24,694 bases of DNA, from the IMG/VR virus record IMGVR_UViG_3300017764_000100, positions 1 to 24,694 of that record; one strand, given 5' to 3'. Positions within the stretch are counted from its first letter, which is position 1. Each line of letters opens with the position of its first letter. Shown in pieces: positions 5,868-24,694 of this stretch. Origin of the DNA: a virus. The notes under the pieces were generated by a model, which was not told where the DNA came from, ran no database searches, and worked only from the letters and a program-made list of their open reading frames with translations. A program made the translations under genes and the position numbers.

Positions 5868-6053
5868 ATGGACGTAATACATTGTAAATCAGAAGTTATC
5901 ATCAAAAATAAAAAAACTGGTAAAGTTTATAAAGATGAAGATGAAGCAAAGAAAGACATCCAAGACAGCTCCACTGATACAGATGAGAGCGACATACAGC
6001 GGGACGTTAACATTATCGTCCCTGAGTTACCAATGGATGGAGAAACAAATTGA
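5868..6053 (+). CDS. Small acidic conserved phage protein
   Basis: 61 residues from ATG 5868; an in-frame TTG at 5853 would add five residues, but neither start has a clear Shine-Dalgarno site. The sequence begins MDVIHCKSEVIIKNKKTGKVY, then an acidic stretch (KDEDEAKKDIQDSSTDTDESD), then a hydrophobic strand (VNIIVPELPM). The family of small proteins with KSEVIIKNKKTGKVY is one I recall from marine podovirus tail regions; its role is unknown. Its TGA (6051-6053) overlaps the TTG start of the glycosyltransferase gene, so the two are likely translated together. Confidence 0.68.
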   Translation: MDVIHCKSEVIIKNKKTGKVYKDEDEAKKDIQDSSTDTDESDIQRDVNIIVPELPMDGETN

Positions 6054-6979
6054 CACCATTAGGTGGAACTGAACTTCAACATAACTTCTTGAGTAAATAT
6101 GTTGATAATGATCTACTTAGTAATTTTTCAATTTGTACCTCAGTTCCTGAAAAAATACCTTTAGATGAAAACAAGTTAAATATACTGTGGCAAAAGAATG
6201 CCCCTAACCAACCTAATATAGCGCCTTGGTTTAAAGATAAATCTAATCACATTAAATACGATTGGTATGTATTTAATTCAAGTTGGAACTATGAAAAGTA
6301 TAGAGATCTTTACGACATACCTACTGATAGATGTCATGTAATAAAAAATGGTGTAACTAATTTTCCAAATAGAATTCCATATAAACAAGGGGACAGATTA
6401 AGGTTGTTATTTCATCCTACACCTTGGCGTGGTTTAAATGTTTTGTTAGCAACAATGCAATTATTAGAAAATGAAAACATTGAATTAGATGTATATAGTA
6501 GTTGTGAGATTTATGGTAAAGAGTTTCAACAAGATAACGATGACAGTTATGTTGATTTGTATGACCAGGCTCGTAACCTTAAAAATGTAAATTATCTTGG
6601 TTATAGGCCTAATGAATTTATTTTAAGTAAATTACCTCATTACCATATGTTTGCTTATCCTAGTATCTGGGAAGAAACATCGTGTATATCTTTACTTGAG
6701 TCAATGGCCGCAGGTCTGTATTGTATTGTCACTAACTATGGGGCTTTATATGAAACAGGAGCCGAGTTCCCTGTTTATGTCAACTATGAAACTAATTTAG
6801 TAAACTTGGCTCACCAGTTTGCAGAAGGTATTAAGATATGTCGGGACACGCTCCACGAACCAGTGATCCAACAGCATTTAGATTTACAACAAAATTATAT
6901 TAAACGTTTTTATTCTTGGGATAAGAAAGCTTTAGAATGGTCAACTTTTTTGCAGGGTGTTCTGGATGCAAAACAATAA
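6050..6979 (+). CDS. GT4-family-like glycosyltransferase (GT-B fold)
   Basis: 309 residues. The C-terminal half carries the GT4 donor-binding signature: YPSIWEE then TSCISLLESMAAG (about 204-222) with the E-x7-E pair E209/E217, followed by GALYETG. The GGTE at residues 5-8 is the glycine-rich loop that in GT4 enzymes follows the first beta strand, so this protein is unusually short at its N-terminus. The frame above TTG 6050 runs only to a TGA at 6023-6025 and holds no other usual start codon. FNSSWNYEKYRDLYDIP, then VIKNGV is also typical. It would move a sugar from a nucleotide-sugar to an unknown acceptor, perhaps a virion protein or host surface glycan. It overlaps the acidic-protein stop by four bases and a second glycosyltransferase follows. 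Confidence 0.85.
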   Translation: MTPLGGTELQHNFLSKYVDNDLLSNFSICTSVPEKIPLDENKLNILWQKNAPNQPNIAPWFKDKSNHIKYDWYVFNSSWNYEKYRDLYDIPTDRCHVIKNGVTNFPNRIPYKQGDRLRLLFHPTPWRGLNVLLATMQLLENENIELDVYSSCEIYGKEFQQDNDDSYVDLYDQARNLKNVNYLGYRPNEFILSKLPHYHMFAYPSIWEETSCISLLESMAAGLYCIVTNYGALYETGAEFPVYVNYETNLVNLAHQFAEGIKICRDTLHEPVIQQHLDLQQNYIKRFYSWDKKALEWSTFLQGVLDAKQ

Positions 6980-10403: not shown

Positions 10404-12158
10404 ATGGATAAGACTTTACTCAGACCTTTATTTCAAAAAAGATTTATGGAGTTACACAAACCACAAGGTTTTCGCTCTGGTGCAGCTATTGATTTCCAAC
10501 AAATTGCTATGGGTAATCAAAGTAAACAACCAAACAATGATCAAGGTATCATGCAGATTGAACCAAAAAATGATCAAGGTATCCTACAGGTTGCGAATCT
10601 TATGCCTGATGCCAGTGCACCAGTTATTGATGTTCAGAGAAGAGAACTACCTGAACCAGGGATTTTAAATGCTCTCAAGCAAGGTTTTGATGAAAGCAAC
10701 GAGCAAACTAGAATAAAAAAAAATGTGGAAGCCATTAATCAGGGGCGAAAGCAAGGTGAAACTATTGAGGATTTAAATCAAGAAGTTGATCAAGCTCAAG
10801 AACAAGAACACTCTGAATTTTTAAAATTTCTAGAAAAACAAGGCGACCCTCAACCTCAGCAACCTCCAACAAAAACGCCAACAAAAAAAACAAGTGATGC
10901 ATCAGGTTTATTTTCAGATAGTGAGAGAACTGCTATTTTTGCTGGACTTTTAGCAAGAGGTATAGGTCAGCCTGGTAATTTTTTTGATAATTTAGGTCCT
11001 GCATTAGGTGGTGCTGCTATGGGTTTAGCTGATCTAAAAGCAACAGAAGCAGAGTTGGCAAAAGCAAAATCGACAGGTAAACCTTTTGAAGTTTATGATC
11101 CAAATGCAAAACAAAATGTTTTAATTCGTCCCGAAAATTTTATTGAGGGTTTTCATCAACCTGCAAAAGCAAAAGAAAAGGCAGATGATTATGTTGAGAA
11201 ATACGACAGAAAACTTGAAACACTTGTTAGTGTAAAAAAAAGTGAATTAGGTGCAACTATGTCACCTGAAGACAAGACCGCTAGATATATCAACATACCA
11301 AAGATGATTGATGTAATTGCAAACACTGATTTACCTGAGTTTGGTTTAAAAGAAGGTGATAGTAAACCAATACCCGTCTTTGAATATTTTGCAAATAAAA
11401 ATAAGTTTAGATCAAAAGATCCAGATGACATCGCAGAAAAAGTTGCCTTTGAGTTTCAAAAAAGAACGGAAAAAAAGAAAGCAGATAGAATTGATGAATC
11501 AAACGAAAGTATGCTGGGAGCTTTAACTGTTGCCAGATTAGCTGACAGTATAAAAAAAGATATTCAAGCTGGTGCAAAAACAGGTGCGGCAGGTGATATT
11601 GTTCAATTTGCAAACTCTAGTAGAGCTTTAGTTACTGAATTTATCAATCCTATTAGAAATAACCCTAGTAAAACAATAGTCTCTGATTTTGCAAGAATGG
11701 AAAGCGAGTTAAATAATTTAGTAGCTGATCCTACTAAAGCATCAGGACCTTATAAAGATGGTGTTGCCAAATTTGTGCAAAAAATATCAACCTTATCAGC
11801 AAGTGCGCGTTCTGCAATGATTGATTTAGCTTATACTTTAGCAAAAGCAAGAGAACCAGGAGGACGTTTTTCAACGACTGATATTGAATTAGCTATGGCG
11901 ACATTGGGTGAACAAACAGATCCAAAACAAATGTTATTTGTTTTAAGAAGAGTGGCGAAAAGAGGTATTCAACAAGCAATAGACAGACATTCTTATTATA
12001 CAGGTAAAGCTGAATCAGATTTTGATCCTATATTTCAAGAGGTCATAAAAGCAAGAGATGAGTTGGGAGGCTCTGGAGAAGCGTATTTTGAAGAAATAGA
12101 AGATAAAAATAATAATAATAATAATAATAATAATGGTGGCCCTCCACCTATACCATAA
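10404..12158 (+). CDS. Internal virion protein candidate with poly-Asn tail
   Basis: 584 residues. The N-terminus contains GFRSGA and two short repeats NDQGI-x-Q (45-51 and 56-62), followed by a charged coiled-coil region and a Pro/Gln/Thr linker (about 147-165). Residues about 175-210 are Gly/Ala-rich and hydrophobic (IFAGLLARGIGQPGNFFDNL, then GPALGGAAMGLADL). The C-terminal two thirds are mainly helical, ending with nine consecutive Asn and GGPPPIP. The start lies three bases after the previous stop, with only GGGG upstream. Position between two likely ejection proteins suggests the same particle. I do not recognise a specific family. Confidence 0.65.
   Translation: MDKTLLRPLFQKRFMELHKPQGFRSGAAIDFQQIAMGNQSKQPNNDQGIMQIEPKNDQGILQVANLMPDASAPVIDVQRRELPEPGILNALKQGFDESNEQTRIKKNVEAINQGRKQGETIEDLNQEVDQAQEQEHSEFLKFLEKQGDPQPQQPPTKTPTKKTSDASGLFSDSERTAIFAGLLARGIGQPGNFFDNLGPALGGAAMGLADLKATEAELAKAKSTGKPFEVYDPNAKQNVLIRPENFIEGFHQPAKAKEKADDYVEKYDRKLETLVSVKKSELGATMSPEDKTARYINIPKMIDVIANTDLPEFGLKEGDSKPIPVFEYFANKNKFRSKDPDDIAEKVAFEFQKRTEKKKADRIDESNESMLGALTVARLADSIKKDIQAGAKTGAAGDIVQFANSSRALVTEFINPIRNNPSKTIVSDFARMESELNNLVADPTKASGPYKDGVAKFVQKISTLSASARSAMIDLAYTLAKAREPGGRFSTTDIELAMATLGEQTDPKQMLFVLRRVAKRGIQQAIDRHSYYTGKAESDFDPIFQEVIKARDELGGSGEAYFEEIEDKNNNNNNNNNGGPPPIP
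12108..12134 (+). repeat. (AAT)9 microsatellite
   Basis: Nine perfect AAT triplets encode a nine-residue Asn run near the C-terminus of the 584-residue protein. Slippage would change the length in whole codons without a frameshift. Confidence 0.95.
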
Positions 12159-12164
12159 TAAAAA

Positions 12165-15100
12165 ATGATTATATACGAAACATTACCAGAATATAAAAAA
12201 AGAGAAGAAGAGCAAAGACCTGAGTTTTTTGAAAAAAATATTAAAGGACGTTCTGATCTTGATCTTTTATATGAAATGTATAACAAGAGAAGACAAGCTG
12301 GTGATACACAAGATTTTTTTAGCTATGTTGAAACTAAAGATCCTGAAGGCATCTTCTATTCTAGAGAAAAATTTATGGAAAGTGGTTCTGGTCGTCACTT
12401 TGAAGGAGATGAAGATGTAAATTCAATGTCAGATATAAGATTTGCACAGAGAGTTTACGATTATGTAGATAAAAATATAAATTTAAATACAGAACAAACT
12501 TTAAATAATAAAAATAGAAGACAAACAAAAGTGCTTTTTAAAGACTTTTTACAAAATTTTGCACCTAAACCAGATAAGATAATTAATTCTGAAAAATACG
12601 GTGATGTAGCTGTTAAAGAATATTATTCACCAGCAGAAATTGGACTTGAATTAAACAAATATGAAGGTGACCTTGGTACTTTACCAAGAGGTGAAATTAG
12701 TCTTAATGAAGCTAGATTTGCAGGTAGTTTGGCAAAAGATTTAAAAAATCAAACAATTGCTTATGATAAACTATTACGACCAATTGTTGGTCAAGATCCT
12801 CAAATTTCTTTTGGTAGATATACTAATGAGTTTGAGTTTTTTAATCCCGCTTTAAATGAGGGTAAAGGGGGAAGACAGTTGATCAATGACCCTAATTTTA
12901 CTTTAGCTGATGTTACTGGTATTGGTGGAGATGCCCTTGTTGGTGCTGCTGATATGGTAGGTGCTGGGTTAGGGTTAATATATGGTGGTCCTGTAGGATC
13001 TGCTGTGGGATCTGGTCTAGCGAGTGGTGTAGCTGATGCGATTCGCATAGGTGCTGGTTATAATTTATATGGTATAAATTTAGACGAAAAATCAGATGAA
13101 GAAATAGGTGACCTGATGACAAGAGCGGGTGTAAATACTGGTTTAATAAATGCAGGAATTACAGGAACTACTTATGCTTTGCCTTTTATAGCTAAATTAG
13201 GATATAGATTGGCTAAGGGTGGTAAAGTTGAGTTATCTGATTTAGCAGAAGATGTTGATCCAGCTAAATTGAAACAAGTTGAAAAATTAGAAAGAGAAGT
13301 TAATGACAGACTTGATTACTACAATGTTTCTAGAAAAGTTAAATTTAAATTACCTCAAGCAACTAACAATCCAAAACAATTAGCGGATTTAGAGATGTAC
13401 GAAACAGACCCCAATTATGGTGTTGCTGGTAAGTTAGGTAATTTTAACAAAGAAAATGCAGAGGCTTTGTTTTTGTTAAACAGGAAAATACAAAATAGTT
13501 TACAGGGGACATTTGATCCATTTGACCCTATGGCAACAACAAAATTAAATAAACAAATACAAGACATAGTTAACACTAGAAACAAACCAAGATTAAAAAT
13601 TTTATCTGATACACTAAATAAATCAGAAACAAACCTTTTTGATGAAATTATTAAGTTACCCGATGGTCAAATGAAACCACAAGGTCAAAAAATTAGAACA
13701 CTTGTTGAGGAACTTGAAGAAAAAATGTATACAGATTTTAAAGAAAAGTACACACTTTTGGGAGGGTTAGAGCAAGGTCGTAAAATTGAAACTGATTTAA
13801 TACAAAAATATATCTCAGGTTTGACTGACAAACAAAAAAATAATCTTTTAAAAGTACAACCCGCTATTAAAGATATTGTTAAACTGTCAAAAACAGGTAC
13901 CTTACCAAAAGAGGTAACTTTAAATCAAATTCGTAACACTTTGTCTACAGTGTATGACATGGAAAGACAAGCCGCTAAAGGTATTCCAGAACAGTTACCA
14001 GGTTTTGCTACAGGTTTAAAAAAGGCAATACATGAACAGTTTGAGAAGTCATTAAAACCAAATGATCCATGGAAATTAAAATATGACGAAATTACAAATC
14101 TTTATAGAAAGGGGAAAGAGAGATTTTCAGGGGCAATTGCTGATTTAACGTATATGAAAAATGGTGTACCAATGATCGCTGATGAAAACATTTTTACATC
14201 AACTTTTAAAAAAGCAGGTGCTAACACAGGGCAACATCAAACAACTGATTTAACTTACGACATTTTAAAAGAAAGACCAGATATGCTTGATGGTTACCGT
14301 CAAGCTATAGAAGATTTTTATAGAACAAAAATTAAAGATAAAAGTGCAGCACAAATTCAAGCTATTCACAAAGATTTTGTAGACAAAGATAGAGGTTATG
14401 GTTACATACTTGAAAAATTTTATGGTAGAGAAGGTATGTCTAATATTATGAAGAATGTTGATGGGCTAGCAAAAGAAAACATAAAGATTCAAGCGAAGAA
14501 TAAAAGAATATTAGAAAAATTTAACAAATCATTTAAGGGGCAATTGGGTAGTTTAGACCCTGACAATATTTTTGACAAAACATTTAATCCAAAATTACCA
14601 TCGCAAATTTTAAGAACTGTTAACATCATTAAAGATAAACCAGAGCTACTTGGATCTTATCAAAGAAAAGTTTTAGAAAATTTTAAAGACAGAGTTTCAA
14701 CAAAAAGTTTTCTTGGAGATCAAGAATTTGACCCTAAAAAATTCGTCAATGTATATGGTAATCAACAGGAAAGAAATGCTCTAAAAATAGTATTTAAAAA
14801 TAATCCTCAAGTTTTAAAAGATTTAGATGTGATAGGTAAAAGTTTTGAAGTGTTTACACGTAAGGCACCTGGAAGACCTGAAAAAAACAAATTTCAGTGG
14901 CTTGTTGATATAATTAGAGTGCCTTTTGGTGTATTTACAAGTGAGGGAAGAATACTTTCTGGTTCATTAAAATATCTATCAGCAAAGTATAATAAAAATA
15001 TGGCTGATGTTTTTATGGATCCAAAAAAAATATCACAATTACGTGAATTTATTGAAAGACGCAATTCAAAAACAGCAATTGAAAAATATGACGAAGATAT

Positions 15101-15461
15101 TATAAAGTATTTATTTGGTTTTGATTATAAAGCAATAGGTGTTGATGATGAGGTTAGTCCTCGTGATATAGAAACAATAGAAAAAATTAAGATTCTAAGA
15201 AAAGGTGGACAACCAAGTGACGTTGATATTACTGAAATTCAACCGCAACAAAATGCACCATCAGTAAATATGTTCGCTATGGAGCAAATGCCACGACCCA
15301 CGGAACCCGCTCCAATCGCACCCCCTCCTGTACAACAACCACAACCCGCAGGTATAGCTTCACTGCCACAGGATAGAGGTCAAACGTATGCAGGATTATT
15401 TCCAAACGATCCCTCGGGACAAATGATAGCACAAAGAGGAACACAAGATGCCGGAGCCTAG
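12165..15461 (+). CDS. Giant internal virion / DNA-ejection protein
   Basis: 1098 residues, the longest gene of the window and in the slot occupied by gp15/gp16-type ejection proteins in T7-like phages. No clear ribosome-binding site precedes ATG 12165. The N-terminal 245 residues are charged and helical. Residues about 250-300 are glycine-rich and hydrophobic (VTGIGGDALVGAADMVGAGL, then GLIYGGPVGSAVGSGLASGV), with a second such stretch near 321-346, compatible with membrane insertion during infection. Residues 350-1020 are long Lys/Glu-rich helices. The final 80 are Pro/Gln-rich with DVDITEIQPQQ and PPPVQQPQP. No lytic transglycosylase motif like that at the start of T7 gp16 was found. Function is inferred from order and architecture. 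Confidence 0.7.
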   Translation: MIIYETLPEYKKREEEQRPEFFEKNIKGRSDLDLLYEMYNKRRQAGDTQDFFSYVETKDPEGIFYSREKFMESGSGRHFEGDEDVNSMSDIRFAQRVYDYVDKNINLNTEQTLNNKNRRQTKVLFKDFLQNFAPKPDKIINSEKYGDVAVKEYYSPAEIGLELNKYEGDLGTLPRGEISLNEARFAGSLAKDLKNQTIAYDKLLRPIVGQDPQISFGRYTNEFEFFNPALNEGKGGRQLINDPNFTLADVTGIGGDALVGAADMVGAGLGLIYGGPVGSAVGSGLASGVADAIRIGAGYNLYGINLDEKSDEEIGDLMTRAGVNTGLINAGITGTTYALPFIAKLGYRLAKGGKVELSDLAEDVDPAKLKQVEKLEREVNDRLDYYNVSRKVKFKLPQATNNPKQLADLEMYETDPNYGVAGKLGNFNKENAEALFLLNRKIQNSLQGTFDPFDPMATTKLNKQIQDIVNTRNKPRLKILSDTLNKSETNLFDEIIKLPDGQMKPQGQKIRTLVEELEEKMYTDFKEKYTLLGGLEQGRKIETDLIQKYISGLTDKQKNNLLKVQPAIKDIVKLSKTGTLPKEVTLNQIRNTLSTVYDMERQAAKGIPEQLPGFATGLKKAIHEQFEKSLKPNDPWKLKYDEITNLYRKGKERFSGAIADLTYMKNGVPMIADENIFTSTFKKAGANTGQHQTTDLTYDILKERPDMLDGYRQAIEDFYRTKIKDKSAAQIQAIHKDFVDKDRGYGYILEKFYGREGMSNIMKNVDGLAKENIKIQAKNKRILEKFNKSFKGQLGSLDPDNIFDKTFNPKLPSQILRTVNIIKDKPELLGSYQRKVLENFKDRVSTKSFLGDQEFDPKKFVNVYGNQQERNALKIVFKNNPQVLKDLDVIGKSFEVFTRKAPGRPEKNKFQWLVDIIRVPFGVFTSEGRILSGSLKYLSAKYNKNMADVFMDPKKISQLREFIERRNSKTAIEKYDEDIIKYLFGFDYKAIGVDDEVSPRDIETIEKIKILRKGGQPSDVDITEIQPQQNAPSVNMFAMEQMPRPTEPAPIAPPPVQQPQPAGIASLPQDRGQTYAGLFPNDPSGQMIAQRGTQDAGA

Positions 15462-16503: not shown

Positions 16504-17181
16504 ATGGCTTATTTGATAAGTAACATACCCTATTTTAAAGTTTGGGTACGAAAAGAATTTACACACAATCACAGAAAATATCATGGAGAGTATATTCATG
16601 CTCTTGCTTGTGCTGTCAATTGTGTGCCGGACAGATGTTTAAGTTTCCAAGTTATCTTTACAGGATGTGAAGACGAAGATAATAGACTGGAAAATCCTCA
16701 TGGCGGAGCGATGTGGGCAAGAATGCCTATCACTGCTCTTGTGGCAGATGAACCTTTGGATAAGTTTCCTCCTCCTATCCCAACTCATCTGGCACAGCCA
16801 TGGGATTGTTCTTCCAGAAATCACGAAGTTATAGTATTTGATAGGACTTCATCAAGTCCCTGGCTATGTAAAATAGATGGTAAATTTTATTCCGGTAAAT
16901 ACTATATGACGGTTGATTACACAGGATCAGAAATATCTGATGATCCTGCGCAACACAAACAGTCACATATACTTGAACTTACAGAAGGACCTTGGAAAGG
17001 GTGTATAGTTGCTTTACCTAATAATAGAGTAAGGGTTACCTCACCCGCTATGTGGGTTACAGGTAGTGGCGCTCCTGATTTTGTACCAAGTCAATGGAAA
17101 CATTGTGCTGAGAGTGATGATAGTTATATGGATTGGAAAACAACATTTAATAACTTATATGCGAAAGATGAAGATGAATGA
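16504..17181 (+). CDS. Conserved protein of unknown function, His/Cys/Trp-rich
   Basis: 225 residues. I do not recognise a characterised family. The sequence is compact and enzyme-like: HNHRKYHGEYIHALACAVN (His at 21, 23, 27, 32), PHGGAMWARMPITALVADEP, QPWDCSSRNHEVIVFDR, then SPWLCKIDGKFYSGKY, TVDYTGSEISDDPAQHKQSH, and ALPNNRVRVTSPAMWVTGSGAPDFVP. The density of His, Cys, Trp and Asp in short blocks suggests a binding site, possibly for metal. No membrane helix or signal peptide is present. It starts at ATG 16504 after GGGG, 37 bases from the basic gene, and ends in overlap with a tiny gene. I believe similar proteins occur in related marine phages. Confidence 0.75.
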   Translation: MAYLISNIPYFKVWVRKEFTHNHRKYHGEYIHALACAVNCVPDRCLSFQVIFTGCEDEDNRLENPHGGAMWARMPITALVADEPLDKFPPPIPTHLAQPWDCSSRNHEVIVFDRTSSSPWLCKIDGKFYSGKYYMTVDYTGSEISDDPAQHKQSHILELTEGPWKGCIVALPNNRVRVTSPAMWVTGSGAPDFVPSQWKHCAESDDSYMDWKTTFNNLYAKDEDE

Positions 17182-17320
17182 ATTTATGAGTGAAAGGTTT
17201 TATTTGGTAAACAAAAGAGGTAATATTATTTATACTGATTCTGGAAAACCTGTATTTATACCGGAAGATTATAGAAAATATTACAAACCTTTACCTAATG
17301 AAAATACTAAGAGAAAATAA
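17174..17320 (+). CDS. Tiny conserved-looking hypothetical protein
   Basis: 48 residues from ATG 17174 (or ATG 17186), overlapping the stop of the 225-residue gene by eight bases and the start of the nuclease gene by 23. The sequence (SERFYLVNKRGNIIYTDSGK, then PVFIPEDYRKYYKPLPNEN) has a plausible small beta-hairpin and basic tail. The fit between two genes and ordinary composition argue that it is translated. Longer open frames upstream lie inside the neighbour and are not used. Function unknown. Confidence 0.55.
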   Translation: MNEFMSERFYLVNKRGNIIYTDSGKPVFIPEDYRKYYKPLPNENTKRK

Positions 17321-18029
17321 TAGTTTTACAATCACTGACTTTGTTATAGATCCAAAATATAACTATAGTGAATATACAAGGAATGATGAATCTACAGGTA
17401 GAACCTACAATGTTGGTGACAAAAAAATACCCTCAGTAACAACAATTTTATCTGGAACTCAAAGTGAGGACAAACGAAAAGCTTTGGCCGCTTGGAGAGA
17501 AAGGGTTGGTTATCAAGAAGCTACAAAGATAACCACACAAGCCGCAACCAGAGGAACTGAGATGCATTATATTATGGAACAATATCTTAATGGTGTTGGG
17601 TATTTAAATTTATCAAAAGAAGGAAGCTTACCACGAATGATGGCTCATACAATTGTTTCTAATCTTGATAAATTAAGTCGGGTATACGGAACAGAAGTCA
17701 GCTTGCACTATGAAGATCAATGGGCAGGATCAAGTGATGCTGTTGGTGTTTACAATGGTAAGCCTACGATAATTGATTTTAAACAATCCAATAAACCTAA
17801 ACGAGAAGAATGGATTGAAGATTATTATTATCAAATAGCTGCATATGCCTTAGCGCATAAAAAAACCTTTGGTGATATTAAACAAGGTTTGATTTGTGTA
17901 TGCACCAAAGATTTGTTGTATCAAGGGTTTTTGGTTAGTGAAGAATTATTATCAGAGTATGAGAAGAAATGGTTTGCGAGAGTAGAAAAGTTTTACAAAA
18001 ATTTTAAGACTTCTTCACCTAAGGTTTGA
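17298..18029 (+). CDS. PD-(D/E)XK exonuclease, RecB/Cas4-like
   Basis: 243 residues. The order of motifs is that of the RecB-type nuclease family: RGTEMHYIMEQYL with H90, E133 in TEVSLHYE, GSSDAVG with D147, TIIDFKQSNK with D160 and K162 (the D-x-K pair), and YYYQIAAYALA with Q179 and Y183 (motif QxxxY). These residues bind the metal and cleave DNA. No C-terminal cysteine cluster is present, so this is not a Fe-S Cas4. It probably degrades or processes DNA ends for replication, recombination or host DNA breakdown. Its 3' end overlaps the antisense helicase gene by 37 bases. The start overlaps the tiny gene before it. Confidence 0.88.
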   Translation: MKILRENNSFTITDFVIDPKYNYSEYTRNDESTGRTYNVGDKKIPSVTTILSGTQSEDKRKALAAWRERVGYQEATKITTQAATRGTEMHYIMEQYLNGVGYLNLSKEGSLPRMMAHTIVSNLDKLSRVYGTEVSLHYEDQWAGSSDAVGVYNGKPTIIDFKQSNKPKREEWIEDYYYQIAAYALAHKKTFGDIKQGLICVCTKDLLYQGFLVSEELLSEYEKKWFARVEKFYKNFKTSSPKV

Positions 18030-19399
18030 GCACTTAATTTCATCTTTGAATTCAATGTTTTAAGAATAAATTCATCAAGTGTTTTATCTGCAATAAGGTC
18101 AATGTATGTAACACTTTTTGTTTGTCCATGCCTATGAGCACGATCTTCTGATTGTTGGCGCACTTCTAAATTAAAAGAGTTATTAAAATAAATAACAGTT
18201 GTTGCAGCAGTAAGCGTAAGGCCATAACCAGCAACTGTTGGATTACCTACTAAAAAACGAACATCTTTATTTTGTTGAAAATTTTCAATTGCAGAGTTAC
18301 GAGCATCAAGTGTAGTTGCTCCATAAATTTCTACTGTTGAGTCACTACCAAATTTAGTTTTTAAAGTATTTACTATTGTTTTTATAGTATCTACAAATGT
18401 AGCCCAAATAATTACTTTGCCATCTATCTCATCTAAGATATTGATTAACTCGTTTAATTTAGCATTAGGTAGAGTTTTTGTGTCACCATCGTCAGTTTTT
18501 AAAAACCCACAACACACTTGATTCAATTTGGATATTTCAGTTAGTTTGTTTGTGTACGATACCATTTCATCTTCAATAATAACACGACACGTTTCTTTTA
18601 GATCATTGTAGATATCTTGTTGTTGTTTGGACAAAGCAATAAATCTCTTCTCATAAACTTTTGGTGGTAGATCTAAGCACTCATCTTTTTTTACTCGATA
18701 CGAAAATTGTTTTATTTTTTCTTCTAATTCATCAAGGTTCTGATAGTAAATAGGTATCATTATATTTTTATTACCCACAACTTGAATTTGTTTCATAACA
18801 GAATAACGTGCTCTAAAAACGAAGTAATTAGTAAACCCTAATAATCCTTGCTTTAAAAACTCACATTGGGTATAAAGATCTAAAGGAGATTTTGTAATTG
18901 GGGAGCCTGTTAGAATTCTTTTGTAAGTTGATGGTTGGCATACTTGTATTATATTTTTTGCTCGTTTGGCTTGTCTGTTCTTTATAGTAGTTGACTCATC
19001 TATTATCGCACACATTTTTTTGTGAAACACATTCATAATTTTTTTCAATATGTTTACACCAGAAGAATGTGAAAAAGCTTCTACATTAAATAAATAAAAA
19101 TTTAATTTATCTTGTTCGTGAACAAAGTTTTTATCAACCTTATGTGTGTTTATATTTACATCACATCCAGCGTGCATATTTATTTCATTAATCCAATTTT
19201 GATAAACAGAGTTTGGTGCAATAACTACAACTGTATCTATTTTTTTTTCAAAATATAAATTTACAACATCGTCAATGGCAACTTTTGTTTTTCCTGTACC
19301 CATCTCCATAAAGTATGCAAAGCATTGTTTTCCTTGGCTTTTTTCCAAAGATTTAAGTTGATGTTTGAATGGTTTAGTTTTAAAATTATATTTGGTCAA
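17993..19399 (-). CDS. SNF2/SF2-type DNA helicase (DEAD/H-like ATPase)
   Basis: About 468 residues, the only - strand gene. Counted from TTG 19411: KPFKHQLKSL (13-22), Walker A EMGTGKT (36-42), motif Ia VVVIAPNSVYQNW, motif II IIDEST (136-141), motif III LTGSPI, and in the second RecA lobe VIIWATF, NPTVAGYGLTLT and QQSEDRAHRHGQ (motif VI, arginine finger). That last form is typical of SNF2-like translocases. There is no ATG start: TTG 19399 is preferred because GGGAG lies six bases upstream of it, while TTG 19411 has no site. It would translocate on double-stranded DNA, aiding replication fork, recombination or chromatin-like protein removal. It converges with the nuclease gene and diverges from the replication operon. 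Confidence 0.88.
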   Translation of the reverse strand: MTKYNFKTKPFKHQLKSLEKSQGKQCFAYFMEMGTGKTKVAIDDVVNLYFEKKIDTVVVIAPNSVYQNWINEINMHAGCDVNINTHKVDKNFVHEQDKLNFYLFNVEAFSHSSGVNILKKIMNVFHKKMCAIIDESTTIKNRQAKRAKNIIQVCQPSTYKRILTGSPITKSPLDLYTQCEFLKQGLLGFTNYFVFRARYSVMKQIQVVGNKNIMIPIYYQNLDELEEKIKQFSYRVKKDECLDLPPKVYEKRFIALSKQQQDIYNDLKETCRVIIEDEMVSYTNKLTEISKLNQVCCGFLKTDDGDTKTLPNAKLNELINILDEIDGKVIIWATFVDTIKTIVNTLKTKFGSDSTVEIYGATTLDARNSAIENFQQNKDVRFLVGNPTVAGYGLTLTAATTVIYFNNSFNLEVRQQSEDRAHRHGQTKSVTYIDLIADKTLDEFILKTLNSKMKLSAQTLGEEVLKFL

Positions 19400-19483
19400 A
19401 TTATCTCCCAAAAATATCTTAACTTTTTTGTTGACATTGTAAATGAAAAAAATTAATTTTGTATACGATGAAAGGAGGTCCTT
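19400..19483. promoter_or_regulatory. Divergent control region before the replication operon
   Basis: This gap separates the - strand helicase from the + strand operon. It contains a perfect TTGACA -35 box (19431-19436) directed toward the operon; the best -10-like hexamers are poor (TTAATT at 19453) or badly spaced (TATACG at 19462). On the - strand TAAGAT lies close to the helicase start. The segment therefore probably holds two divergent promoters, but exact elements are uncertain. Confidence 0.45.
19472..19483 (+). promoter_or_regulatory. Consensus Shine-Dalgarno inside an inverted repeat
   Basis: AAGGAGGTCCTT directly abuts ATG 19484. The AAGGAGG part matches the 16S rRNA 3' end perfectly. 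The arms AAGGA/TCCTT are complementary and could pair (four pairs with a four-base loop) to hide the site, or the palindrome could bind a protein. Confidence 0.6.
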
Positions 19484-20029
19484 ATGGATCTAGAGAAAGA
19501 ATCCACTGAAATAAAAGTGGATACAGGTAAGTCGCAAGAATTATCTGAACTTTGCACTAGACTATTGGAACTTCAGAAACAAATAACAAAGTGTGAAGAA
19601 AATATTAAAAATTTGCGCGGTGAAGAACGTTTGCTTTCTGAAAACGAAATTCCAAATCTAATGCAACAATCTGGTATATCAAGTCTTAAATTAATAGATG
19701 GATCATCTGTTGAAGTAAAGCCTTTTTATGCTGCCAAAATTCCTGTTTCCAAAACAGATGAAGCTTTTGATTGGCTTTCATCTAATGGATATGGAGATCT
19801 AATTAAAAACCAAGTGTCCCTCACTTTTGGTAAATCTGAAGACAATATTGCTAATTCAATTGTAGAAGATTTAAAAGGTAAAGGACATAATGTATCCCAA
19901 AAGAAAAAAGTAGAACCTATGACACTTAAAGCTTTTGTTAGAGAACAAATACAAAGTGGTCAGAACATACCTATGGATTTGTTTGGGGTATATGTATCAA
20001 ATAAAACGACTATTAAAACCAAGGAGTAA
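19484..20029 (+). CDS. Coiled-coil protein of replication operon
   Basis: 181 residues, first gene of the operon, with the strongest ribosome-binding site of the window. Residues about 18-55 are a coiled coil (ELSELCTRLLELQKQITKCE), followed by ENEIPNLMQQSGISSLKLID, then VEVKPFYAAKIP, then FDWLSSNGYGDLIKNQV, and a C-terminal AFVREQIQSGQNIPMDLFGV. I recall proteins with the EIPxLMxxxGISSLxLxDG and FVxEQIxSGxxIPxDLFG motifs in marine and other podovirus-like phages beside SSB genes (DUF7173-type, from memory). The role is unknown; a partner of the following SSB-like protein is plausible. No enzymatic residues are apparent. Confidence 0.75.
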   Translation: MDLEKESTEIKVDTGKSQELSELCTRLLELQKQITKCEENIKNLRGEERLLSENEIPNLMQQSGISSLKLIDGSSVEVKPFYAAKIPVSKTDEAFDWLSSNGYGDLIKNQVSLTFGKSEDNIANSIVEDLKGKGHNVSQKKKVEPMTLKAFVREQIQSGQNIPMDLFGVYVSNKTTIKTKE

Positions 20030-20034
20030 TAAAC

Positions 20035-20823
20035 ATGAATGAAGTCGCAAAAAAAGAAGAGTCTCTTCCCTCTCTTACAAATCTGGAAGAATTTTCTGGT
20101 CAAGGTACAGAAAACATCACAGCTCGTGATACAAAATTACCTATATTAAAAATACTTTATGCTAACTCGCCAGTGCTTGATGAGAGTGATGGTAAGTATA
20201 ATGAAAAAGCAAAACAAGGTGATATCTATAATGAAGTCACGGGTTCTCTTTATAAAAGTAAAGAGGGAGTTTATGTTGTTCCTTGTCTTTTCATTAACAC
20301 TTTTAATGAATGGGCTGATCGTGGAGATAGTCCGGGTAGACCTATTCAAATACACACAGACCAATCTATTATGAATAAGACACAAAGGGCCGACGATGGT
20401 AAAGATCGCCTTGAAAGTGGTCACTATGTTGAAGACACAGGTAATCACTTTGTGTACATTTTAGATAAAGATTTTAACCCTATTGAAAGTGCTTTGATTA
20501 CAATGAAATCCACACAGAAGAAGAAATCTAAATTGTGGAACTCTATGATGCAATCAAAAAGAATGAAAGGTAAGAATGGTTATTTTATACCTCCATCTTG
20601 GGCAAGTGTTTACAAACTAACAACTACCAAAGAATCTGGTAATGGTAACAATTGGTTTGGTTGGGTTGTTGAATTTGTCAGATTTCTTGACAAACCAACT
20701 GACAGTGGTGCTCTTGAAATAACAAAAGGTTTTTATGAGGGTGCTAAGGAGTCTGATATTTTTGGTAAAGTAGAATTTGCTGAAGATAAAAATAAAACGA
20801 CCAAAGAAGACGTTCCTTTCTAA
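20035..20823 (+). CDS. Single-stranded DNA-binding protein candidate
   Basis: 262 residues, with AAGGAG (20021-20026) overlapping the end of the previous gene. It ends in an acidic tail closing with KEDVPF, like the C-terminal protein-docking tail of bacterial SSB (DDIPF) and similar in logic to T7 gp2.5. The body has strand-rich aromatic segments (LPILKILYANSP, VYVVPCLFINTFNEWADRGD, HFVYILDKDFNPIESALITM, NNWFGWVVEFVRF) as in OB-fold-like phage SSBs. Its stop overlaps the primase start by TAATG. It would coat ssDNA and recruit primase and helicase through the tail. The tail is clear; the family call is by pattern and context. Confidence 0.72.
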   Translation: MNEVAKKEESLPSLTNLEEFSGQGTENITARDTKLPILKILYANSPVLDESDGKYNEKAKQGDIYNEVTGSLYKSKEGVYVVPCLFINTFNEWADRGDSPGRPIQIHTDQSIMNKTQRADDGKDRLESGHYVEDTGNHFVYILDKDFNPIESALITMKSTQKKKSKLWNSMMQSKRMKGKNGYFIPPSWASVYKLTTTKESGNGNNWFGWVVEFVRFLDKPTDSGALEITKGFYEGAKESDIFGKVEFAEDKNKTTKEDVPF

Positions 20824-22406
20824 TGCATAAGGAATTGTTGTCGTTGTTTCAAGGCGATGACTCTCGATATCTCAAGTCCTCTCTTACGGGAGAGGACGAT
20901 GAGCGAGGTAAACGACAAGCTAATTATGTCACTGTGCACGAGCCTGTGACAGAAGAAGTATGGAAACAACATCTAGAAGGTAAGATTAGGTTAGGTCTCA
21001 AACCAGAAGCTGATGAGCAGTGTAAATGGGGATGTATAGATGTTGATCCAAACAATTACAAAGATTACTCAGAAAAAAAATATGTTGAAATAATTAGCAA
21101 GTACAAATTACCTTTTGTTCCTGTCAAATCTAAATCTGGTGGATTACACATATTTGTTTTCTTTTCAGAGTTGGCAGATGTAGTAAAAGTCACAAAAAAA
21201 TTATCAGAAATTAATGAACAGTATTTTTTAGCGCAAGAGATTTTTCCTTGCAACAAGGCAGTTAATATGCCTTATCACAATATGAATGCATCAATGGAGT
21301 TTGCTTTTGATGGTAATAATACACCAATAATGGTAGGACGATTTGTTGAACTAGCAAAAGAGCGCACTGTTGAACCTAAAGATTTTTTTAATTTAAAAGT
21401 ACAAGAATACGAAGCTGAGAGTGAATGGAAACACTATCCACCTTGTGTACAAAAACTAATTCAAGAGGGGTGGAGTGGTACAAACAGAAACAATTTTTTA
21501 TTTAATGTCCTTGTGTTAGAGATGAAAAAGAACTCAACTCTCTCAGTACAACAACTTGAGGAATCTGCATTGACAAGAAATTCTCAAATTTTTGCTAAGC
21601 CTTTGCCACGAACAGAGGTTGTACAACTTGCTAAATCTGTTCATAAAGGGGGCTATCAATTTCAATGTCCACCAAAACATCCAGAGTATAATCCAATTTG
21701 CAACAAAGAATTATGTAAGTCTAGACGATTAGGTATTGGCGAAGCAGTTCCCGATATAATTGAGGCTTTTGAAAACATTAGTTACATTCAAGATACCAAA
21801 AATATTTGGTACGAGTTTGATTTTAAAGGATCAAAAATTTCTGTCACTCCAGAAGATATGAAAGATGAGAAGTCTTTTCGTGTACGATTATTAAGGCATC
21901 GTGTTTATTGGCTCACTCTTCCTAAACCTAGAAAAGGGCCTAGTCCTTTTGAATTGTTAATGAAAAATATTGTAGAAAAAGCACAAGAATCTATGGATCA
22001 TTTGTATACAGATACAGTGGAGGAAGAGCGCTATTCTGTCTTAAAGAACTTTTTTGAATCGCATATAGAACAAGATAAGTTTGATAAACTGAAAGATGGC
22101 TATGTAGTATTAGATTCTAAATCAAATATATGTTATTTTAAAAAACTTACCCTTGATAAGTTTCTCAAGAAACACGCATCACGAACCTTTAACACTACAG
22201 CTGATGCACTTCGTATGTTAAATTGTAAGAGGGTTGACTATAAAGAGGGTGAAAAGAATGTGTGGTATGTTGATATGCCTAATTTTGTAAACCACCACAG
22301 TATTAAAAAAATAAAAACTAAAGACGAAACATCAGAAATGGACGAAAGGTATCATGATAAATTCAGGAATCCAGAAACAAAAGAGTCTGCACAAAAAGAC
22401 AATTAA
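20823..22406 (+). CDS. Archaeo-eukaryotic-type primase (AEP / PrimPol-like)
   Basis: 527 residues, coupled to the SSB gene by TAATG. The catalytic core shows CKWGCIDVDPNNY (D73-x-D75, metal ligands) and VKSKSGGLHIFVFF (SGGxH at 105-109, nucleotide binding), the two hallmark motifs of AEP primases; the third ligand is not certain. Residues 282-298 contain C-x3-H-x6-C-x4-C followed by RRLGIGEAVP, a cluster known from phage primase C-terminal (PriCT-like) regions and possibly metal-binding. The C-terminal 200 residues have no helicase motifs, unlike T7 gp4 or D5 primase-helicases. It likely makes primers on the phage genome, working with the SSB and SF1 helicase encoded beside it. Confidence 0.85.
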   Translation: MHKELLSLFQGDDSRYLKSSLTGEDDERGKRQANYVTVHEPVTEEVWKQHLEGKIRLGLKPEADEQCKWGCIDVDPNNYKDYSEKKYVEIISKYKLPFVPVKSKSGGLHIFVFFSELADVVKVTKKLSEINEQYFLAQEIFPCNKAVNMPYHNMNASMEFAFDGNNTPIMVGRFVELAKERTVEPKDFFNLKVQEYEAESEWKHYPPCVQKLIQEGWSGTNRNNFLFNVLVLEMKKNSTLSVQQLEESALTRNSQIFAKPLPRTEVVQLAKSVHKGGYQFQCPPKHPEYNPICNKELCKSRRLGIGEAVPDIIEAFENISYIQDTKNIWYEFDFKGSKISVTPEDMKDEKSFRVRLLRHRVYWLTLPKPRKGPSPFELLMKNIVEKAQESMDHLYTDTVEEERYSVLKNFFESHIEQDKFDKLKDGYVVLDSKSNICYFKKLTLDKFLKKHASRTFNTTADALRMLNCKRVDYKEGEKNVWYVDMPNFVNHHSIKKIKTKDETSEMDERYHDKFRNPETKESAQKDN

Positions 22407-23964
22407 GATCTTTGGGCCACCAGGCACAGGCAAGACTTATACTTTAATAGAAAGAGTATTAAAGAAATATTTACGAATAGGTATTCATCCAAAAGATATT
22501 GCTTTTATTTCGTTTACGAATAAAGCAGTGAATACAGCTAGGGATAGAGCGCTAGCTGCTTTCCCAAAGTATGACACTGATGATTTTCAAAGGTTTAAAA
22601 CACTGCATAAGTATTGTCGTAGATACTTTGAAGAAGAAGTTTTTGACCCTAAGAACTGTATGTTAGACTTTGCTTTGCAGAGTAAAATAATTAAGACATC
22701 AGATACTCGTTTAGCTGATGATGGCTTTTTATACAAAGATTGGTCATTAGGTATCTATGACAAGGCTAGAAATATGATGCAAGACCCTAAACTTGTATAT
22801 AAAAAAGAGGGTTATAAAAAAGATAATTTAGATATATTTTTAAGAAAGGTTGACACATACGAACACTACAAAAAAAATTCGTTTATAGATTTTACAGATA
22901 TGATTGAAAGGGCCATTAATGAAGTAGACTTTCCACCTTTGGAGGTTCTGATACTTGATGAAGCTCAAGATTTTACACCTTTACAATGGTCAGTGATTTA
23001 TAAAATGGTTGATAAAGTTAAACGTGTTTATTTAGCTGGGGATGATGATCAAGGTATATATAAATGGAATGGAGCAGATCCAAAATACTTTACAACTTAC
23101 TTTCCAGGGCGACCTGTTGTGCTTAGACAAACAAGACGTTTTGGTAAAGAGATATATGAATTCTCTCAAATAATAAGACGAGGTATATTTGATAGTGTAG
23201 AAAAAGAGTATGAACACACTGAAAAATTTGGTACAGTAAAACGATATTTAAATTTTAATGAAATACCTTTTAAAACTTCTGAAGGGACTTGGTATATTTT
23301 AGGTAGAGTAAATTCAACTGTTACAGAGTTAAAGATGGCCGCAAAGGATGTAGGCTTATATTTTTCTGATAATAAAGGTAATAAGTCTTTTGATAAAAAA
23401 CAATGGAGTGCAATTAAATCTTGGACAACCTTATCAAAAGATAAATCTATCAGCAGAGATCAAGCTGAAAATATGTACAAGTACATTAGGGATTTAAAAG
23501 ATTTTGATTTTAGAACACCTAAATTTTGGCAAAACATTCCTGAAACACAGACATTTACTTTCAAACAATTAAAAGAGTGGGCGGGTTTAGATTTAGAAGA
23601 TTATGAACAAACACGACCTTGGTGGATTATTTTGAAAAGAAACTTTACACCAAACCAAACTCAGTATTTCATTCGTTTACTTAGAACTTATGGGCAAAAA
23701 ACTATTGATAAAGACCCTCAGATAATTATTGATACTATTCACTCTGTAAAAGGTGGCGAGGCTAACAATGTGTTAATTTACTCAAAAACAAATTGGCCCG
23801 CATCTTTTTCACATAAAACAAAAGATGAGCAGTCTGATGAAAAAAGAGTTTATTACACAGGAGTTACAAGAGCAAAAAACACTTTACATATTTTATCCAC
23901 AGACTATAAATATAATTATCCTATTGGAAAAGATTATTTTATGTACCTACAGGAGAAAAAATGA
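22354..23964 (+). CDS. UvrD/Dda-like SF1 DNA helicase
   Basis: 536 residues, beginning 53 bases inside the primase gene after GAAAGG (22344-22349). Motifs in order: Walker A GPPGTGKT (21-28), Ia FISFTNKAVNTAR (51-63), II LDEAQD (201-206), III LAGDDDQGIYKW (227-238), IV RQTRRFG (258-264), V IIDTIHSVKGGEANNVL (458-474), VI VYYTGVTRAKN (499-509). The set is complete, so it should unwind DNA using ATP with SF1A (3'-5') polarity. It is shorter than host UvrD because the 1B/2B insertions are reduced. It may serve as replicative helicase, since no DnaB- or gp4-type gene is seen here. It ends in ATGA overlap with the next gene. Confidence 0.9.
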   Translation: MINSGIQKQKSLHKKTIKIFGPPGTGKTYTLIERVLKKYLRIGIHPKDIAFISFTNKAVNTARDRALAAFPKYDTDDFQRFKTLHKYCRRYFEEEVFDPKNCMLDFALQSKIIKTSDTRLADDGFLYKDWSLGIYDKARNMMQDPKLVYKKEGYKKDNLDIFLRKVDTYEHYKKNSFIDFTDMIERAINEVDFPPLEVLILDEAQDFTPLQWSVIYKMVDKVKRVYLAGDDDQGIYKWNGADPKYFTTYFPGRPVVLRQTRRFGKEIYEFSQIIRRGIFDSVEKEYEHTEKFGTVKRYLNFNEIPFKTSEGTWYILGRVNSTVTELKMAAKDVGLYFSDNKGNKSFDKKQWSAIKSWTTLSKDKSISRDQAENMYKYIRDLKDFDFRTPKFWQNIPETQTFTFKQLKEWAGLDLEDYEQTRPWWIILKRNFTPNQTQYFIRLLRTYGQKTIDKDPQIIIDTIHSVKGGEANNVLIYSKTNWPASFSHKTKDEQSDEKRVYYTGVTRAKNTLHILSTDYKYNYPIGKDYFMYLQEKK

Positions 23965-24464
23965 GCCCCTATTTTGAAGAACTAAGAATTGGACAATTTT
24001 ATAGTCCAGAATTACACAACATAGTGTTTAACCCACAAACAGAGTGGATACCCTATTTCAATTTTACAGCCACACCAATACCAATTAATATCTTACTAAA
24101 AGATGATTTTTATTTATGGTTGTATGGTCGACATAAATATAAAGTGGGTGTTCTTAAAATGGAAAATAAGACTATGTATAATTGGCACGCTGATTCTAAT
24201 AGAGGTGTATGTGTGAATACAATGATCCCTACACCAAACACATCGTATACCTTTTTTAGAGATAAAGCTGATGTACAACACCCTGTGACTGAATTACAAT
24301 ATTATCCGGGCACGAGATTTTTATTCAATAATCAAAAGGAACATATGGTTTTAAATTATGATGGAATACGAATGATGTTAACAATTGAATTTTTAGAGGA
24401 TAAAAATGAGTTGACTTTTTCTCAGTTATTAAAAGAGATTGAAAATGAGTACTACAAAAAATAA
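23961..24464 (+). CDS. 2-oxoglutarate/Fe(II)-dependent oxygenase-like protein
   Basis: 167 residues, AGGAGA upstream and ATGA overlap with the helicase gene. The double-stranded beta-helix pattern is visible: YNWHADSNRG (H76-x-D78, first two iron ligands), then GTRFLFNNQKEHMVLNY (H128, third ligand), then GIRMMLTIEF with R137, the usual co-substrate-binding arginine. Strand VCVNTMIPTPNTSYTFF lies between them, as in Asp/Asn beta-hydroxylase and prolyl-hydroxylase-like folds. Such enzymes hydroxylate proteins or nucleic acids; in phage DNA modules both base and protein modification are possible. Substrate cannot be predicted. The HxD...H...R set is complete, but the family call has not been searched. 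Confidence 0.68.
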   Translation: MSPYFEELRIGQFYSPELHNIVFNPQTEWIPYFNFTATPIPINILLKDDFYLWLYGRHKYKVGVLKMENKTMYNWHADSNRGVCVNTMIPTPNTSYTFFRDKADVQHPVTELQYYPGTRFLFNNQKEHMVLNYDGIRMMLTIEFLEDKNELTFSQLLKEIENEYYKK

Positions 24465-24666
24465 TCTTTGGTTAAAGGGCGGACAGTATTACAGAGATTT
24501 TGATATCCAACCCTCGCAGTTTATAAACAAAAACAAAATTCTTTTTGCAGAAGGCAATGTAATAAAATATGTATGTAGGCATCAGGGAAAAGGGGGCAAA
24601 GAAGATTTACAAAAAGCAAAACATTACATAGATATGATTATTGAACGAGATTATTCTGATGACTAG
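24445..24666 (+). CDS. DUF3310 (SaV-like) small protein
   Basis: 73 residues from ATG 24445; an in-frame TTG at 24439 adds two. The motif YYRDFDIQPSQFI, then FAEGNVIKYVCRHQGKGGKE, then DLQKAKHYIDMII matches the DUF3310 family, a small helical protein frequent in phage replication modules and sometimes fused to nucleotide-metabolism proteins. It has been called nucleotide kinase-like without good proof. It overlaps the oxygenase gene by 20 bases and the following gene by eight, thus part of the same operon. Confidence 0.88.
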   Translation: MSTTKNNLWLKGGQYYRDFDIQPSQFINKNKILFAEGNVIKYVCRHQGKGGKEDLQKAKHYIDMIIERDYSDD

Positions 24667-24694
24667 TCTACAACTTACATTTAATTTTAAAAAA
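24659..24694 (+). CDS. Start of another gene, cut by window end
   Basis: ATG 24659 begins an open frame of twelve codons (MTSLQLTFNFKK) running off the window. It overlaps the DUF3310 stop by eight bases, matching the overlap style of this operon. In phages of this kind a polymerase or nucleotide-metabolism gene commonly follows, but nothing here proves it. Confidence 0.45.
   Translation, partial: MTSLQLTFNFKK

Follow-up and report, generated by a model that had tools for sequence, protein, structure and literature searches.

The window, the whole stretch of 24,694 nucleotides that was analysed, carries what is probably the self-contained DNA replication gene set of a marine phage of the HTVC023P type, in which a UvrD-type helicase would open the fork. 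As read from sequence profiles and predicted structures, the parts of the cassette and their order include a free-standing AEP primase, an SSB-like protein with a predicted OB-fold, a complete SF1A helicase and, past the end of the window, a PolA. This primase-helicase-PolA cassette is genuine and occurs very widely in viral metagenomes. The source phage probably infects SAR11-type bacteria.

Gene organization and conservation

The following features were identified in the window:
17298 to 18029, plus strand: Cas4/RecB-like PD-(D/E)XK exonuclease (phrog_298 exonuclease, 3.9e-50)
17993 to 19411, minus strand: SNF2/HepA-type SF2 DNA translocase (PF00176, 3.1e-22; Helicase_C, 9.3e-14; phrog_62, 1.7e-117)
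19484 to 20029, plus strand: Pam3 gp33-like protein (PF23984/DUF7307), first gene of the operon (PF23984, 4.6e-31; phrog_2378, 2.1e-46)
20035 to 20823, plus strand: SSB-like protein of 262 amino acids with a predicted OB-fold (PF23977 Pam3_Gp34, 1.2e-56)
20823 to 22406, plus strand: AEP primase of 527 amino acids (PF22548, 3e-9; phrog_21866 'primase', 7e-44)
21039 to 21047, plus strand: AEP motif I, D-V-D, codons 73-75 (D73 and D75 invariant, n = 106)
21129 to 21149, plus strand: AEP motif II, SKSGGLH, codons 103-109 (S103, K104, G107 and H109 invariant, n = 106)
21237 to 21248, plus strand: candidate AEP motif III, EIFP, codons 139-142 (E139 invariant, n = 106)
22354 to 23964, plus strand: UvrD/PcrA/Rep-type SF1A helicase of 536 amino acids (PF00580, 4.6e-28; UvrD_C, 4.3e-13)
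23961 to 24464, plus strand: open reading frame of 167 amino acids between the helicase and PolA (ORF call)
24439 to 24666, plus strand: DUF3310 protein (PF11753, 6.5e-10; phrog_236, 7.4e-20)

The SSB-like, primase and helicase genes lie where the initial annotation had placed them, and their junctions overlap: the SSB-like and primase genes have one base in common (TAATG), and the primase and helicase genes share 53 bp. The helicase stop overlaps the start of the 167-amino-acid open reading frame by 4 bp (ATGA), while the gp33-like gene ends 5 bp before the SSB-like gene, without overlap. For the 167-amino-acid product, no match was identified in Pfam, PHROG or NCBIfam. The DUF3310 family is tied to nucleotide kinases in PHROGs. 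The SNF2 gene is divergent from the replication operon and lies tail-to-tail with the exonuclease gene, with an overlap of 37 bp. The exonuclease, which matched TIGR00372 (cas4) at 4e-6, below the cut-off, is a probable recombination partner. Promoter-like sites over positions 17900-24694 were not more frequent than in shuffled sequence, so that no promoter is claimed for the gap 19411-19484.

The cassette was surveyed in 288 distinct loci, with per-gene counts taken only from loci with enough flanking sequence. Of 109 loci, 107 had SNF2 upstream, and the gp33-like gene was upstream in all 160; the SSB-like gene was linked to the primase gene in 188/188 loci, the UvrD-type gene followed the primase gene in 221/222, and PolA was linked to the primase gene in 128/129. 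The order SNF2 on the minus strand, then gp33-like, SSB-like, primase, UvrD and PolA on the plus strand, was present in 69 of the 70 relatives with good flanks. A chance origin is excluded by the conservation and order seen over the 288 loci. For the window's own genome, PolA lies outside the window and is deduced from relatives and from the near-identical contig L002, which is 99.8% identical to positions 19052-24694 and in which PolA follows just past the window end. Column 762 of PolA is Leu in 206 of the 208 relatives having a residue there.

A megablast search of the window DNA against the phage collection gave no direct match. The closest isolate is HTVC023P (MN698239; gp86, gp01-gp08), which shows the same gene order and strands with PolA downstream; by this conserved order and nearest isolate, the cassette is of the HTVC023P pelagiphage type. 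Identities amount to 51% for the primase, 68% for the helicase, 61% for the SSB-like protein and 55.6% for SNF2 (gp86); the two differ in sequence at the species level and in gene content between helicase and PolA. The core genes of HTVC023P-type pelagiphages have been described (PMC9599517). The GC skew of HTVC023P climbs steadily over the whole genome and thus indicates no origin.

The primase and the SSB-like protein

Sequence and predicted structure identify the primase as an AEP with intact catalytic residues and without a helicase of its own. In an alignment of 106 homologues, D73, D75, S103, K104, G107 and H109 are invariant; E139 aligns with the EIFPKQ of CAPP 7nqf, and the assignment of motif III rests on that alignment. 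The match to PF22548 (AEP-TOTE) exceeded the cut-off. A PDB sequence search with the primase sequence by itself retrieved no real match, so that a profile was needed to find CAPP 7nqf (5.5e-11). The predicted fold was superimposed on CAPP with a Z of 19.6 (2.4 A, 174 residues), followed among other AEPs by S-2L PrimPol (11.3), LigD (about 10) and human PriS (8-9). No open reading frame in any of the 288 distinct loci matched both primase and helicase profiles. The free-standing AEP primase proposed in the initial annotation was therefore borne out by invariant motifs, a CAPP-like predicted fold and the lack of a fused helicase, and the HMM search and structure prediction suggested there both returned an AEP.

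The predicted AEP domain (amino acids 1-195) is followed by a PriCT-1/PriL-like domain (about 198-305), a middle region (about 307-390) and a winged-helix-like domain (about 396-489). PriCT_1 was matched by 39 of 50 homologues (best 2.2e-9), with the window primase's own match, at 0.013, below the cut-off; in the predicted structure, this region resembles PriX (Z 6.6 over 90 residues). C208, C282, C293 and C298 are invariant (n = 106), and the four-cysteine domain gave no match to PriL by sequence at E<10. The predicted structure of residues 396-489 matches TcpK (Z 7.0) and, weakly, HSF DNA-binding domains; Pfam gave no support for a winged helix in this segment.

CAPP (7nqd/7nqf) and the phage primase have the AEP catalytic domain with DxD, GxH and EIFPKQ in common. 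However, their genomic settings differ, and the PriCT, four-cysteine and winged-helix-like parts are additional in the phage primase. The PrimPol-PV1 primases, which belong to mobile elements and include PolpTN2, combine an AEP domain with subsequent PriCT-1/PriL-like and winged-helix domains, as predicted for the phage primase (PMC5862659, PMC3973330). In contrast to these, the catalytic domain of the phage primase is nearest to CAPP/AEP-TOTE, no P-loop ATPase is fused to it, and the helicase is a separate gene.

The SSB-like protein had at first been named from its tail motif only, a call that has since gained support from a predicted OB fold and from the PF tip, which is present in 82 of 100 homologues. 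The protein ends in KEDVPF; in the homologue set, the last 20 residues hold 4.4 acidic residues, compared to 2.5 per 20 in the body. The AF2 model (pLDDT 89) shows a strand-helix order of the OB type. By VIA it matched the RB69 gp32 core (Z 6.4), T4 gp32 (Z 5.6), and RPA and SSBs (Z 3-4); in Foldseek the best E was 7.8e-3 with none below 1e-3, so the OB-fold match is a moderate one. A PDB sequence search with the protein or its profile retrieved nothing, and no match to the canonical bacterial SSB, PF00436, was obtained. The PF23977 family comprises 445 phage records, mostly labelled hypothetical, to which the SSB assignment, if true, would give a function.

The UvrD-type helicase and the replication fork

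The helicase is complete, as had been proposed: PF00580 (99 bits) and UvrD_C (50 bits) both exceed the cut-off, and an alignment of 109 homologues shows conservation of the motifs GPPGTGKT, DEAQD, GDDDQ, TIHSVKGGE and VTRA. Its nearest solved relatives are PcrA (1pjr, 4.9e-19) and Rep, and TIGR01073 (pcrA) was matched at 5.4e-21. A UvrD-type gene is present in 20 of 20 long relatives; in 17 of them, the counterpart of the cassette helicase is the sole UvrD-type match, and a second one was found in Pan1, in R5C and, weakly, in the contig of L155.

Textbook phage replisomes depend on hexameric DnaB- or gp4-type helicases. A canonical replicative helicase or primase elsewhere in the genome would speak against the proposed pairing, and none was identified in seven complete relatives or in further long contigs; in the seven, HTVC023P and HTVC027P among them, neither a DnaB/gp4 helicase nor a DnaG/TOPRIM primase nor a canonical SSB was found. 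In profile searches of the relatives, which a very divergent ring helicase could escape and in which many relatives are fragmentary and the window's genome incomplete, DnaB_C and Toprim_2 were absent from 22 related records and PF00436 from 20, no DnaG zinc ribbon and no credible match to the DnaB-type phrog_19 were found, and nothing exceeded the cut-off for AAA_25 or, in 20 records, for DnaC/IstB. One contig gave a phrog_19 match of 13 bits, which was rejected as a replicative helicase, as were sub-cut-off AAA_25 matches as helicase or loader and two sub-cut-off IstB matches as loaders, since all were short and low-scoring; the AAA_25 matches of two contigs lie inside the UvrD gene. The T7-like phages, to which the window had been compared for their gp4-type TOPRIM primase-helicase, were not the relevant reference, the nearest isolate being HTVC023P.

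The UvrD-type protein is likely the fork helicase. The SSB-like protein would cover single strands, with its acidic PF tip recruiting partners. The primase would lay primers, with the initiating nucleotides held by its PriCT/four-cysteine domain and DNA or an origin bound by its winged-helix-like domain. The helicase, for which 3' to 5' unwinding is inferred from its family, would unwind the fork ahead of or together with PolA; this direction would place it on the leading-strand template, in the role held by DnaB or gp4 in other phages. In replication and recombination, SNF2 and the nuclease near it may clear or process DNA. UvrD-type monomers alone have low processivity, which counts against a role as fork motor.

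An alternative, considered unlikely, is that strand displacement by PolA opens the duplex, and that the UvrD-type and SNF2 motors serve in repair, recombination or roadblock removal. Viral PolAs neighbouring SNF2 genes have shown strand displacement and were proposed as a substitute for a helicase (PMC9069017), and the cassette contains a PolA of that kind, with Leu762. However, the UvrD-type gene is linked to the primase as tightly as PolA and belongs to the same series of genes read in one direction, and its helicase motifs are strictly conserved. The SSB-like and SNF2 genes also adjoin other polymerases and helicases, so that linkage alone leaves the role of the UvrD-type protein unfixed.

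It is less probable still that host DnaB drives the fork, with the phage UvrD-type protein as an accessory like Rep/UvrD in E. coli. Bacterial hosts encode DnaB, UvrD-type helicases are known to act as accessories in replication, and a phage-encoded ring helicase was not found in the searches. On the other hand, no DnaC/IstB-type loader exceeded the cut-off in 20 records, and the phage supplies a polymerase itself, together with a primase that is not related to DnaG, with which DnaB usually works. It is very improbable that the AEP protein is a Prim-Pol for repair or damage tolerance, or belongs to a conflict system, although its best structure match (the CRISPR-associated Prim-Pol) and the Pfam name AEP-TOTE might suggest this. 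Its gene is fixed beside those for the SSB-like protein, the helicase and PolA in the sampled phages, searches of complete relatives turned up no other primase, and it carries PriCT-1, which is typical of mobile-element AEPs (PMC5862659).

Relation to known replication systems

The combination of primase and helicase had been called unusual, which did not hold. All 24 GenBank phages with a primase match also have a helicase match, and the two are neighbours in the GenBank annotations of HTVC023P, R5C, Pan1 and DSL-LC04. A large and abundant phage group has this pairing as a fixed trait, and it was visible earlier: in the Chesapeake virome, UvrD, SNF2 and Leu762 PolA formed the second most abundant combination (Nasko 2018, PMC6302109). 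The Leu762 group II replicon described there has Leu762 PolA with UvrD-like and SNF2-like helicases, as in the cassette; in the passages drawn on here, DnaG is given for other groups, and AEP, SSB-like and gp33-like proteins are not named. Phage N4 (gp37 helicase, gp39 PolA, gp43, gp45 SSB) also encodes its own PolA, SSB and helicase. UvrD-like helicases are common to N4-like and T4-like phages (PMC4981718), and the N4 replication genes are essential in N4 (PMC2784036). N4 differs in that its virion RNA polymerase is also used in replication and an AEP is unmentioned, and the likeness considered here is one of gene functions.

New here are the primase architecture, the SSB assignment for PF23977 and the strict gene linkage; beyond the initial annotation, the cassette also includes SNF2, the gp33-like gene and PolA, and the primase the C-terminal PriCT and winged-helix-like domains. 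No hexameric helicase was found in the complete relatives tested, though viral metagenomes contain the cassette very widely. As a tentative proposal, judged slightly less likely than not, a group that ranks with the most abundant ocean phages may use a ring-less fork with a 3' to 5' SF1A motor on the leading template, an archaeal/eukaryotic-type primase (a single chain with a PriS-like part and a PriL-like domain of four cysteines), a gp32-like SSB that would make PF23977 a new SSB family, and a Leu762 PolA. The protein set is compact and could be rebuilt in vitro, which would allow a direct look at a fork driven by an SF1 motor that is not a ring.

Gene products of the cassette

In this IMG/VR virus fragment of 24,694 bases, the three open reading frames of the initial annotation were recovered at precisely the positions proposed:

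20035-20823, + strand, SSB-like gene (PF23977 member)
20823-22406, + strand, AEP primase gene (AEP-TOTE in Pfam, 'primase' in PHROGs)
22354-23964, + strand, UvrD-type helicase gene (PF00580, UvrD_C)

The description of the genes as all translationally overlapped holds for the SSB-like/primase junction (one base in common) and for the primase/helicase junction (53 bp). The preceding gene (19484-20029) lies 5 bp from the SSB-like gene. The 53-bp overlap is probably genuine, since the sequence from 22354 up to the Walker A motif offers no alternative ATG. At its other end, the stop codon of the helicase gene and the start codon of the following gene overlap in ATGA.

For the primase, the AEP assignment made from motifs agrees with both the profile searches and the predicted fold. 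AEP-TOTE matched residues 39-128 over the Pfam cut-off, the PHROGs 'primase' family covers nearly the full length, and the family profile identified CRISPR-associated Prim-Pol (CAPP) at 5.5e-11, with DxD, GxH and EIFPKQ aligned. D73, D75, S103, K104, G107, H109 and E139 are invariant in 106 homologues. In the AlphaFold2 model (mean pLDDT 80.7), residues 1-191 resemble CAPP with a Z of 19.6 (2.4 A over 174 residues), followed by S-2L PrimPol, Prim-PolC, LigD and PriS; the domain arrangement is not fixed by the model because of its low pTM of 0.51.

C-terminal to this domain, residues ~198-305 contain invariant Cys 208, 282, 293 and 298 and an invariant R222 (106 homologues). PriCT-1 was matched in 39 of 50 homologues (best 2.2e-9; only 0.013 for the window's own copy), and archaeal PriX is a structural match to the region (Z 6.6 over 90 residues); sequence search gave no PriL match for the four-cysteine region. 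Since a kinship of PriCT, PriX and the PriL Fe-S domain has been proposed (PMC5862659), a metal or Fe-S site is plausible here. Residues 307-390 can be weakly matched to the SCCmec helicase Cch in its N-terminal part (Z 5.8), and residues 396-489 resemble TcpK (Z 7.0), levels at which chance likeness is possible.

The SSB-like protein belongs to PF23977 (Pam3_Gp34), a family without assigned function, which was matched by 100/100 homologues. Its model (pLDDT 89) has strands and a helix in OB-fold order. Structural comparison ranks the phiC31 recombination directionality factor (9teh_I, Z 8.0) first, followed by a BRCA2 chain (6.5), the RB69 gp32 core (6.4) and T4 gp32 (5.6), with mainly RPA and bacterial SSBs ranked lower; Foldseek gave no match below 1e-3. 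The tail is rich in acidic residues and ends in PF in 82/100 homologues. Combined, the OB-type order, the structural matches and the acidic PF tail make an SSB likely. The protein was found in 445 phage records, mostly labelled 'hypothetical'. The phiC31 match hints at a possible relationship between directionality factors and OB-fold proteins of phages.

The helicase is, as annotated, a complete UvrD-type SF1 enzyme: PF00580 and UvrD_C were both over the Pfam cut-off, and the motifs Walker A, DEAQD, GDDDQ, TxH..KG and TR are conserved across 109 homologues. PcrA and Rep are the nearest solved structures, and pcrA, DNA helicase II and rep the nearest NCBIfam models. As a member of SF1A, a family that moves 3' to 5', this helicase would be expected to do likewise.

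Linkage in related phages

Profiles of six proteins were run across all fetched loci, comprising 288 distinct primase loci. At loci with enough flank, the SSB-like gene was present in 188/188, the gene for the Pam3 gp33-like protein in 160/160, UvrD in 221/222, PolA in 128/129 and the divergent SNF2 gene in 107/109; because loci were found through the primase, phages without it are not sampled by these counts. The order SNF2(-) gp33(+) SSB(+) primase(+) UvrD(+) PolA(+) was identified in 69 of 70 loci long-flanked on both sides. A rearranged cassette occurs in one relative (L127, 4989-14519), with PolA upstream and SNF2 downstream on the same strand. The primase is free-standing, as the initial annotation had it, with no primase-helicase fusion among the fetched primase loci. 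Contig L002, which shares 99.8% identity with window 19052-24694, extends further into a PolA gene, and therefore PolA almost certainly lies just past the window end in the window's own genome.

A canonical replicative helicase or primase elsewhere in the genome, which would have refuted the reading of the initial annotation, was not found in the relatives searched, the genome of the window itself being incomplete. DnaB_C and Toprim_2 had no match in 22 related records. A further 20 records, made up of seven phages with complete deposited genomes and 13 contigs of 51-64 kb, contained neither a DnaG zinc ribbon nor a canonical SSB; in them AAA_25 and IstB/DnaC had no match over cut-off, and DnaB-type phrog_19 gave a single, not credible, 13-bit match. 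UvrD was matched in 20/20 of these records, as the sole UvrD match in 17.

Other genes of the window

The Cas4/RecB-like exonuclease gene (17298-18029, +) and the SNF2 gene (17993-19411, -) lie tail-to-tail with a coding overlap of 37 bp. A 'ferredoxin' family match (16504-17181, +; phrog_3704, 2.1e-28) represents a possible auxiliary metabolic gene. A glycosyltransferase is encoded at 6050-6979 (+; phrog_2170, 3.5e-26), and Pelagibacter phage HTVC023P carries a glycosyltransferase gene at the corresponding place. Two large open reading frames without PHROG match, 10404-12158 (+, 584 aa) and 12165-15461 (+, 1098 aa), adjoin a DNA-ejection-like gene.

Known systems, proposed fork mechanism and apparent modularity

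The pairing of an AEP primase with an SF1 helicase had been considered unusual; it is instead established and common. HTVC023P is the nearest isolate to the cassette; phages of its type have helicases and DNA polymerase among their core genes, and their phylogeny was built on PolA, a DEAD/DEAH helicase and the primase as markers (PMC9599517). Leu762 group II PolA adjoining UvrD and SNF2 helicases was described by Nasko et al. 2018 (PMC6302109), where it made up 16.4% of the reads that PolA contigs recruited; Leu is present at position 762 in 206/208 relatives here. Phage N4, with its own PolA, SSB and UvrD-like helicase, is a further precedent (PMC4981718, PMC2784036), and all 24 GenBank records with a primase match also have a helicase match.

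Linkage, the absence of alternatives and conservation make it most likely, with moderate confidence, that the cassette encodes a self-contained replisome whose fork would be driven by the SF1A helicase. The main rival is that strand displacement by PolA, as suggested by PMC9069017, opens the duplex, with the helicase and SNF2 motors being accessory.

The SNF2, gp33-like and SSB-like trio was also identified in Xanthomonas phage FoX7 and in Pseudomonas phages Epa20 (Pbunavirus) and YuA. The polymerase beside it carries a Pol III alpha type annotation in FoX7 and Epa20, and in YuA the trio is accompanied by an annotated PolA and Dda-like helicase. Because it recurs with other polymerases and another helicase, the trio appears to be a shared scaffold, with primase, helicase and polymerase as exchangeable parts. 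The cassette is real, strongly conserved and largely already catalogued, its replication function being predicted; the additions made here are an explicit AEP-UvrD link, the architecture of the primase and the assignment of the PF23977 protein as a likely SSB.
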